Positions 39,911 through 53,252 of a stretch of DNA of 53,624 nucleotides are shown in pieces. Source of the DNA: Methanomassiliicoccaceae archaeon. Its GTDB lineage: Archaea; Thermoplasmatota; Thermoplasmata; Methanomassiliicoccales; Methanomethylophilaceae. The first letter of the stretch is position 1. Every line of letters begins with the position of its first letter. The notes under the pieces were generated by a model that ran no database searches, was not told the origin of the DNA, and was given only the letters and a program-made list of their open reading frames with translations. A program made the translations under genes and the position numbers. The stretch is taken from contig PWHV01000031.1 of the NCBI GenBank assembly GCA_003555025.1, positions 1-53,624 on the forward strand, read 5' to 3'.

Positions 39911-40015
39911 GCCGGGGTGGCTCAGCCTGGTGGAGCGTCGGACTCATAGGGTTCAGGTTCTTGGACCTCTTCCAGGGAAATCCGAAGGTCACGGGTTCGA
40001 ACCCCGTCCCCGGCA
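39911..40015 (+). tRNA. tRNA-Met (CAT), elongator, with 31-nt intron
   Basis: Acceptor GCCGGGG/CCCCGGC, anticodon stem TCGGA/TCCGA, loop CTCATA-A giving CAT, T arm ACGGG-TTCGAAC-CCCGT, discriminator A, no encoded CCA. The intron is 39949-39979, at the canonical site after position 37. Removing it leaves a 74-nt cloverleaf. The bulge-helix-bulge is imperfect: only about three pairs form in the central helix, so splicing needs an endonuclease tolerant of relaxed motifs. Confidence 0.9.
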
Positions 40016-40080
40016 CTCACATCTCACCATGAACAATGGTTGCTTTTTAATATTCAGGTTTTGATGGCTCGAACGATTGA

Positions 40081-52253: not shown

Positions 52254-52351
52254 GGGCCCGTGGCTTAGCCAGGACATAGCGCTGGCCTTCTAAGCCAGAC
52301 GCCTCGGGTTCGAAAGTCATAGAAGGGCCGAAAATCCCGACGGGCCCGCCA
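52254..52351 (+). tRNA. tRNA-Arg (TCT) with a 20-nt intron in the T loop
   Basis: Acceptor GGGCCCG/CGGGCCC, anticodon stem CTGGC/GCCAG, loop CTTCTAA giving TCT, T stem TCGGG/CCCGA, discriminator G and encoded CCA. The T loop is interrupted by 52315-52334; removing it gives the standard TTCGAAT. The boundaries form a textbook bulge-helix-bulge: outer helix CGGG/CCCG, central helix TTCG/CGAA, bulges AAA and AAT, and a short inner helix GTC/GGC. A CTTTAAATCAA box is about 30 nt upstream. Confidence 0.93.
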
Positions 52352-52409: not shown

Positions 52410-52517
52410 ATGAAGAGAAGTTCACGAGCCTGGAAGAAGCCTGGGAACCAGAGATGGAAATGGCGCAAGAAGAAGATGCGCCGCAGGAAGAAGGCGCAGA
52501 AGATGCGTAAGAAGTGA
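52410..52517 (+). CDS. rpl41e: Large-subunit ribosomal protein eL41
   Basis: A 35-codon ORF whose C-terminal part, RWKWRKKKMRRRKKAQKMRKK, matches the tiny all-basic eL41, usually about 25-35 residues; the start adds KRSSRAWKKPGNQ. eL41 sits at the subunit interface of the ribosome. GAGGAG is 7 nt before the ATG. It lies between tRNA-Arg and tRNA-Trp. Genes this small are often missed in annotation. Confidence 0.85.
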   Translation: MKRSSRAWKKPGNQRWKWRKKKMRRRKKAQKMRKK

Positions 52518-52527
52518 TAGCTCTAAC

Positions 52528-52697
52528 GGGGGTATAGGGTAACACGGCATCCTGGCGGGCTCCAGTTATCGGGAATGATTGGAAACGGGTTTGCTGACAG
52601 TTGATGAGTAACTGGAGCGATGACCCGTTAATTCATGGAGGGTAGCTCCCCCCATGGTGGAAACCCGCTGATCGGGGTTCAAATCCCCGTGCCCCCA
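52528..52697 (+). tRNA. tRNA-Trp (CCA) with a 97-nt intron
   Basis: Acceptor GGGGGTA/TGCCCCC, anticodon stem GCGGG/CCCGC, loop CTCCAG-A giving CCA, T arm CGGGG-TTCAAAT-CCCCG, discriminator A, no full CCA (CCT follows). The intron 52566-52662 is at the canonical site after position 37 and contains a box C/D guide (separate entry). It is the substrate of the TrpRS encoded at 7111-8235. Confidence 0.95.
52566..52662 (+). ncRNA. Box C/D guide RNA in the tRNA-Trp intron
   Basis: Box C-like ATGATTG (52575-52581), D' CTGA (52594-52597), C' TTGATGA (52601-52607), D-like ATGA (52620-52623). Guide 1, CGGGTTT (52586-52592), pairs with AAACCCG of the 3' exon boundary; the base five before D' faces C39 (52664). 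Guide 2, TAACTGGAGC (52609-52618), pairs with GCTCCAGTTA (52559-52568); the base five before D faces C34 (52562). Positions 34 and 39 are those methylated by the intron guide in Haloferax tRNA-Trp. The D box is non-standard and box C is degenerate. Confidence 0.85.
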
Positions 52698-53252
52698 CCT
52701 TCCCTTCTTACAAACCCCAATCGGCGTAGCACCGCCATTGGGGCCTGCGCCCCCGACCTTCATCCGCCGTTCTCCGAACGGCCTTCGCCGCCCTCATATT
52801 CAAGCGGCAGTTCTCAGCTCGATCCGCTTCCTTGTGAAGTGACCGAATCAATCCTCAGCAGCTTGGACAGGACACGTCCTACCTTTCGAACGCCCTGTCA
52901 TCATGCTCCTGTATCCGAGTATTCCCGGTAGCATGAACATTCGCCGTGTCCGCCGGCCAGACGGTGCCCGTCATGGACTCCCTGGGACCTTGACGTGCTG
53001 CTCACGCCGCTTGGCATTCCTCCCCGCGGCCTTCCCTTCGGCGCAGGGGCCGGCCTTAAGGCCGATTCTTACGGTGGCCGCGCCCCGCTCCCTCCGCCCC
53101 CAATTCGGCCCTGGTGCGACGGCTATACCCATCCCCGCATATCGGAGCCGCCCATCCTGATGGCCGATCCCGCAGAGGTAGCACAGGAACGGGACGTTAT
53201 TCCATCCAGAGGGAGCCATTGCGGCGGGACGGCAGTAAGGCGCCCCCGTCGG
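52698..53252. other. Gap without recognised gene, with several hairpins
   Basis: About 555 bases between tRNA-Trp and the photolyase. Every ORF here (for example 52971-53219 minus or 52995-53258 plus) is Pro/Arg/Gly-rich and has no family resemblance or good start context. I compared it by eye with RNase P RNA, SRP RNA and 5S rRNA signatures on both strands and found no convincing match. Hairpins are abundant: 52715-52743, a CATGCT...AGCATG pair around 52902-52935, and GGCCTTAAGGCC near 53050. It could hold a structured RNA or a decayed gene. Confidence 0.5.
52715..52743 (+). other. Strong hairpin downstream of tRNA-Trp
   Basis: CCCCAAT (52715-52721) pairs with ATTGGGG (52737-52743) and GGCG (52723-52726) with CGCC (52733-52736), with one bulged C and a 6-nt loop. 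No T tract follows, so it is not a standard archaeal terminator. Confidence 0.6.

Follow-up and report, generated by a model that had tools for sequence, protein, structure and literature searches.

A predicted T-loop intron in tRNA-Arg(UCU) of the Methanomassiliicoccales

Archaeal tRNA introns at non-canonical positions are placed, in passages from several papers, mainly in Crenarchaeota and a few other groups (PMC4090602, PMC4033280, PMC3218864, PMC8450103). The passages of reviews dealing with splicing read the position of an intron as a sign of the endonuclease type: broad, loop-bearing enzymes go with introns anywhere, and alpha-4 and alpha-prime-2 enzymes with introns of the anticodon loop. 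The window analysed here, a stretch of 53,624 nucleotides from a genome of the Methanomethylophilaceae, carries a tRNA-Arg(UCU) gene with 20 nt inserted in its T loop. Is this insert an intron that the cell can remove and, if so, with which enzyme? The parts of the gene, in window positions, are:

52254-52351, plus strand: complete tRNA-Arg(UCU) with encoded CCA, stems and loops assigned base by base
52254-52314, plus strand: 5' exon, from the acceptor 5' strand to T-loop position 59; its 7-bp acceptor and 5-bp T stem strands pair fully with the 3' exon
52254-52260 / 52341-52347, plus strand: acceptor stem, 7 bp
52289-52291, plus strand: anticodon TCT, in the loop CTTCTAA (52287-52293)
52304-52308 / 52336-52340, plus strand: T stem, 5 bp, TCGGG/CCCGA, the outer helix of the splice motif
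52309-52312 / 52329-52332, plus strand: central 4-bp helix, TTCG (T-loop 54-57) / CGAA
52313-52315, plus strand: 5' bulge AAA, predicted cut after 52314 (anatomy and free fold)
52315-52334, plus strand: predicted intron, 20 nt, at T-loop 59/60, exactly missing from sister genera g2, g4 and g6
52316-52328, plus strand: intron hairpin with the 3-bp helix GTC (52316-52318) / GGC (52326-52328), from the free fold, with compensatory changes among relatives
52333-52335, plus strand: 3' bulge AAT, predicted cut after 52334, middle base free among relatives
52335-52351, plus strand: 3' exon, with T-loop position 60, T stem, acceptor 3' strand, discriminator G and CCA
52348-52351, plus strand: discriminator and CCA

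Before splicing, the T loop of this tRNA measures 27 nt, and the acceptor, anticodon and T stems are fully paired. Excision of 52315-52334 would restore a canonical tRNA, with the 7-nt T loop TTCGAAT, a perfect T arm and all stems paired. The initial annotation had drawn a 20-nt intron at these bounds, which our element-by-element anatomy and free fold found correct to the base; its TTCG/CGAA central helix with two 3-nt bulges, cut so as to restore TTCGAAT, was likewise borne out on the sequence. The motif has the strict hBHBh' form, that is, a 4-bp central helix, two 3-nt bulges, and outer and inner helices, the inner one (GTC/GGC) closing a 7-nt loop. An unconstrained fold of the unspliced gene gave exactly the same bulge-helix-bulge (z = -2.08 versus shuffles), and the pattern matched once in the window and never in 100 shuffles of it. 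Random 20-nt inserts at 59/60 gave a 4-bp central helix together with a 3-bp intron helix in about 0.2% of cases, and a chance origin is untenable because the motif is conserved across the order.

To follow the intron through the order Methanomassiliicoccales, 61 genomes (the source and 60 relatives) were searched. The tRNA-Arg(UCU) gene was matched in 54; G003, G006, G014, G019, G034, G040 and G051 gave no match and hence were not parsed, and G396 was added, bringing the parsed genomes of the order to 55. Here f1 is taken as the Methanomethylophilaceae, the family of the source genome, and f2-f6 are five other families. The T-loop intron is present in 42 of the 55 (25/32 in f1 and 17/23 in f2-f6). 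The intron-free genera are g2 (1 genome), g4 (3) and g6 (3) in f1, g15 (5) in f2 and g19 (1) in f6, and the intron-free sister genes carry exactly TTCGAAT. A canonical 37/38 intron is frequent in the tRNA-Arg(UCU) genes of f2, f3, f5 and f6; both introns share one gene in 16/55 genomes, and the canonical intron stands alone in 5/55.

Pooling of overlapping sets, drawn from genomes and named records, gave 190 parsed genes, with 8 loci unparsed, mostly cut by a contig or locus end, and covariation was assessed on the 53 distinct intron-bearing TTCG loops of at most 35 nt. The central helix is complete in 53/53. The intron helix opens with C-G in 18 loops and with G-C in 35, and over pairs 1-4 the partners match in 202 of 212 cells, with 10 failures. 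Redealing the 3' arms gave a mean of 141.2 paired cells (sd 5.4, maximum 164 in 10,000 shuffles), a comparison that ignores kinship and so is not a probability. When the partner was shifted by -2, -1, +1 and +2, 116/212, 141/212, 93/159 and 53/106 cells, respectively, were paired. At three loci (L046, L051 and L053) the intron helix begins with just one or two unbroken pairs. The same comparison fixed the register of the cut. In the source gene alone, cuts after the first or the second bulge base are indistinguishable, both yielding TTCGAAT. Among the 53 loops, however, the 3' bulge has T in the middle in 27, G in 14, C in 6 and A in 6, always with T as the next base; since this middle base varies while the mature loop stays TTCGAAT, it behaves as part of the intron, which puts the predicted cut after the second bulge base and the insertion at 59/60.

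A strict T-loop intron pattern matched the source genome at this gene and nowhere else, and its tRNA-Lys(UUU), Lys(CUU), Arg(CCG) and Arg(UCG) genes are all uninterrupted; most genomes of f3-f6 gave two to six matches. Among 21 such sites in the sister families (20 newly fetched plus one), 59/60 introns were found in tRNA-Lys(CUU), tRNA-Lys(UUU) and tRNA-Arg(CCG), identities that were assigned by eye from anticodon loops and arms; ARAGORN misnamed several genes that still held another intron after removal of the T intron, calling them Pyl, Ala, Gln or Trp. The central helix is complete in 21/21, although the pattern itself requires most of it, and includes the compensated change UUCA/UGAA. In 11/21 the intron helix, read from its base, has only 0-3 pairs before its first break, and those inner stems therefore need internal loops. 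The tRNA-Lys(UUU) genes of the sister families also hold a D-loop intron framed by CTAG/CTAG, the removal of which gives AGCTAGGTAGAGC in 9/9 parsed genes, identical to the D arm of most relatives' uninterrupted tRNA-Lys(CUU). Its pattern occurs in 23 of 24 genomes of the order outside f1 and in 0/37 f1 genomes; G057, the sole genome outside f1 with no match, differs by one base and its gene was parsed. The 3' site of this intron sits within a 2x3 internal loop, a relaxed motif. On the simplest reading, the Methanomethylophilaceae lost most of an ancestral intron set.

Three observations belong beside these distributions. Genes for tRNA-Lys(UUU) with both D-loop and T-loop introns, amounting to as much as ~65 nt of intron per gene, were seen at L302, L307, L309, L311-L313, L315, L316 and L318. 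One genome, G041 (L081, L318), has a tRNA-Arg(UCU) gene with neither intron, though its family has both, and its tRNA-Lys(UUU) still has the D-loop and T-loop introns, a pattern that suggests gene replacement or intron loss via mature RNA. A record titled Atopobium sp. UBA1382 (L114) contains a Methanomassiliicoccales-type tRNA-Arg with the T-loop intron; its title looks wrong or its bin mixed.

Beyond the order, the family f14, another lineage of the class Thermoplasmata, has a T-loop intron in 35/35 parsed tRNA-Arg(UCU) genes, which were chosen by their 5' half only. Of these, 31 have a UUCA loop, in which three of the four central-helix pairs are standard and the remaining position almost always sets A against G (L214-L226, L278-L294, L297). 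This is a systematic relaxation of the motif, in a lineage whose EndA is fused. The gene is intron-free in families f11 (9), f17 (1) and f29 (2); the one f7 gene is interrupted, and no fit was obtained for its inner helix. For any tRNA, a stricter T-loop pattern matched 163/300 class genomes and its reversed control 1/300, the matches being counted mostly by pattern alone. By hand count they fall in 50/79 genomes of the order, 0/50 of f22, 0/11 of f33, 0/4 of f30, 1/11 of f18 and 112/145 others. Some can be false, because the reversed control does not mimic intact tRNA ends: candidates are G020 and G006, from f1 genera intron-free for Arg(UCU), and one G151 match that resembles an intact tRNA. 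The 0/65 in f22, f33 and f30 taken together bounds the level of such false matches. The initial annotation had considered a T-loop intron unusual here, and reviews do place non-canonical introns mainly in Crenarchaeota and a few other groups; within this order and this class, however, they occur commonly (42/55 and 163/300).

Did the T-loop introns of the Methanomassiliicoccales and those of other Thermoplasmata descend from one ancestral intron? We give even odds to independent origins. The tRNA-Arg(UCU) intron is found in 0/12 parsed genes of f11, f17 and f29, and f14 mostly has the UUCA central helix with A opposite G and longer introns; the same tRNA and the same 59/60 site nevertheless speak for common descent. 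An EndA tree, rough and with several long branches, gave 6 state changes for the T-loop intron and 2 for the anticodon-loop intron, gain and loss being indistinguishable.

The initial annotation had also proposed examining the splicing endonuclease of this genome, which proved to be a single fused two-half EndA without the Crenarchaea-specific loop (CSL). EndA occupies one locus with two PF01974 matches and measures 348-349 aa from a conserved start, MPG. Residues 26-344 align with the A. fulgidus alpha-prime-2 EndA 1r0v (E 1.3e-21), the two fused alpha-like halves of a single gene being collinear with that enzyme; the M. kandleri fusion is a better sequence match (E 1.9e-39). The predicted monomer fold (mean pLDDT 89.9) has TM scores of 0.84 to 5x89, 0.75-0.77 to A. 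fulgidus full chains, 0.65-0.66 to T. acidophilum and 0.60-0.64 to ARMAN. The catalytic residues Tyr288, His296 and Lys327 of the C half are invariant in 29/29 aligned EndAs, and the alignment has the His and Lys of M. jannaschii replaced in the N half; the triad is complete in the C half only, as in alpha-prime-2 enzymes. EndA would presumably act as a homodimer. With the alpha-prime-2 enzymes of A. fulgidus (2gjw/1rlv) and T. acidophilum (2ohc) it shares one fused protein, a degenerate N half, a catalytic C half and the absence of a CSL, but those are 289-305 aa long, whereas EndA here has ~350 aa, an N half still recognised by Pfam and its best fold match in the M. kandleri subunit-fusion structure 5x89. 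The M. kandleri (alpha-beta)2 enzyme, described in a passage of one paper as of 'constrained' specificity (PMC6379350), is closest in both sequence and fold and equally has no CSL or ASL; it is made of two subunits, 5x89 being a subunit fusion according to its title, whereas here there is one natural gene. An epsilon-2 enzyme, suggested by a frame of ~390 aa, was rejected: the MPG start gives 349 aa, the unit order alphaN-alpha-betaC does not fit, 4fz2 aligns with residues 244-335 of the query only (fold rmsd 9.1 A), and the full-length collinear match is to alpha-prime-2 and the M. kandleri fusion. An RtcB ligase is also encoded in the genome (578 bits).

Could another activity remove the intron? 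Broad specificity is tied, in passages of two papers, to a CSL or ASL, and the published broad enzymes that have one go with non-canonical introns (PMC6379350, PMC12397907), which would favour a broad (alpha-beta)2 or epsilon-2 enzyme or a second, unrecognised nuclease. We regard this as improbable: the genome has a single PF01974 locus, the CSL site has no insertion in 51/51 aligned EndAs and the A. pernix K44 loop has no counterpart, and the fold is nearest to the M. kandleri fusion and the A. fulgidus enzymes and less near to epsilon-2.

The proposed excision by the fused EndA can be set beside the distribution of enzyme forms. PF01974 was tested in 78 genomes (51 + 27): 72 have two matches within one frame of at least 334 aa, and six have one good match in frames of 274-318 aa (G072 and G244 of f18, G081 and G119 of f22, G143 of f30, G233 of f33). 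The four families with the short form, sampled through these six genomes, are the families almost without T-loop matches. That the long form tracks T-loop introns is suggestive and confounded by ancestry, and the intron-free f1 genera keep the long EndA, so the enzyme does not force introns. The longer EndA frames of f14 (467-597 aa, one of 384 aa) are stop-to-stop lengths in GC-rich DNA.

The assembly (36 contigs) is 97.4% complete, and the tRNA inventory was built from Rfam matches and their flanking stretches, plus ARAGORN on the window. An archaeon normally needs 46 tRNAs; we found 45 of them, Rfam giving 43 matches and ARAGORN adding tRNA-Pro(GGG) and tRNA-Trp(CCA), with tRNA-Tyr found nowhere in the 97.4% complete assembly. 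Arginine is served by one gene each for UCU, CCU, CCG, UCG and GCG. A second, intact tRNA-Arg(TCT) gene, which the initial annotation had named as grounds for regarding this one as a relic, was looked for in the same 97.4% complete assembly and none was found; the UCU gene is therefore single-copy and presumably essential. The warning that a standard search could miss or misread the gene proved apt, because ARAGORN does not report it at 52254-52351 and Rfam gives it 30.9 bits, barely above the cut-off of 29, with a wrong alignment over 52254-52312. This silence of ARAGORN, together with the ~3% of the genome missing from the assembly, is what a relic or pseudogene, with AGA codons read by another tRNA, would have in its favour; we consider it very improbable, since all stems are perfect, searches of the genome gave no other UCU gene, and six families have conserved the interrupted form, with compensatory changes among them.

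Contacts between the T loop and the D loop are near-universal in tRNA. Retention of the insert in a working tRNA with an enlarged T loop, to which its own hairpin might lend itself, is the least probable reading of all, given those contacts, the exact 7-nt loop of the sister genes and an intron length that ranges from 19 to 27 nt in relatives while the splice bulges and central helix stay constant.

By sequence comparison, the intron is almost certainly spliced. Our preferred reading, which we put at a probability of about 0.93, is that of a functional single-copy tRNA-Arg(UCU) gene with a 20-nt 59/60 intron, probably ancestral in the order, that is excised by EndA and whose exons are joined by RtcB. 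The T loop is, like the anticodon loop, a 7-nt loop on a 5-bp stem, and 59/60 is the equivalent of 37/38. The T stem, TTCG/CGAA and GTC/GGC would stack into a strict bulge-helix-bulge at 59/60, the single fused two-half EndA, as a presumed homodimer, would cut each 3-nt bulge between its second and third bases, and RtcB would join the exons to give TTCGAAT. Probably the ancestor of the Methanomassiliicoccales already had the intron along with several others, of which the Methanomethylophilaceae may have kept only this one and three of their genera may have lost even that. Two points count against splicing: the intron helix of the source genome has just 3 bp, and fused alpha-prime-2 enzymes are described, in the passages found, as motif-strict, to which one review adds a canonical position (PMC4090602, PMC4033280, PMC6379350). 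Elsewhere, cleavage by homodimeric enzymes is stated to extend to both BHB and BHL-like motifs, and archaeal enzymes are said to cleave them whether or not a mature tRNA domain is present (PMC8707768); the proposed mechanism is therefore plausible.

Compared with the 59/60 archaeal introns covered by passages of Yoshihisa 2014 (PMC4090602), the present ones share position, bulge-helix-bulge boundary and short length; reviews assign non-canonical introns chiefly to Crenarchaeota, Nanoarchaeota, Thaumarchaeota, Korarchaeum and some few thermophilic methanogens, whereas these occur in Methanomassiliicoccales, with a strict motif in the order, and in many Thermoplasmata. With the canonical 37/38 introns of Euryarchaeota they have in common the 4-bp central helix, the two 3-nt bulges and the predicted cut after the second bulge base, but here the geometry is moved to the T loop, and in sister families both introns sit in one gene (the 16/55 genomes above). 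Statements in the literature consulted hold that Euryarchaeota enzymes cleave canonical motifs only and that, among archaea, Korarchaeum alone combines an alpha-2 enzyme with non-canonical introns (PMC4033280), mention three thermophilic euryarchaeal methanogens (PMC3218864), and describe the H. volcanii enzyme as requiring strict hBHBh' (PMC7714728). The passages found in two Methanomassiliicoccales genome papers mention no tRNA intron (PMC4153887, PMC5011839), and a literature search by title and abstract start gave no report of T-loop introns in this order. In its passages, the tRNAscan-SE 2.0 paper (PMC8450103) describes one intron model built from Crenarchaeota and Euryarchaeota and counts 673 non-canonical introns across 217 genomes, so that the present ones may be in its tables already, without remark; its supplements, or the archaeal EndA and intron survey of Kaneta 2018 (cited in a passage of PMC6379350), may list some of them. 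The intron itself is of a known kind; new are the lineage, the frequency and the pairing with a loopless fused enzyme.

We would wager evenly for and against a wider proposal, in which the Thermoplasmata hold a major, overlooked stock of introns located outside the anticodon loop (59/60 in several tRNAs, D-loop in tRNA-Lys(UUU)), and a long fused two-half EndA without CSL or ASL processes them. If it holds, positional freedom would rest on the longer enzyme form and not on a specificity loop, the introns would have been lost from, or never acquired by, the short-enzyme families, and the published rule that alpha-prime-2 means anticodon-loop introns would need revision. Strict T-loop motifs alongside a loopless fused enzyme, throughout an order and in much of a class, would separate strictness of motif from strictness of position, which are usually lumped, and the intron-plus and intron-minus sister genera provide a natural test set. 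In practical terms, ordinary gene finders can miss or misname the tRNA-Arg(UCU), tRNA-Lys and tRNA-Arg(CCG) genes of these organisms.

Several further features came to light with the inventory. A weak RF00005 match lies at G000:C5:2481-2549 in the source genome. In the window, tRNA-Pro(GGG) at 1516-1591 is reported by ARAGORN and falls below the Rfam gathering score, and tRNA-Met(CAU) at 39911-40016, with an anticodon-loop intron, is named Ser(CGA) by ARAGORN. Between tRNA-Arg and tRNA-Trp lies a 35-codon basic ORF (52410-52517) that resembles ribosomal protein eL41, and in several relatives, too, the tRNA-Arg gene is followed by the same ORF start. The tRNA-Trp(CCA) gene at 52528-52699, found only by ARAGORN with long introns permitted and missed by Rfam at its gathering score, has a 97-nt anticodon-loop intron with box C/D-like motifs, and a nested C/D sRNA is known from archaeal tRNA-Trp, as a passage of one review notes (PMC4090602).
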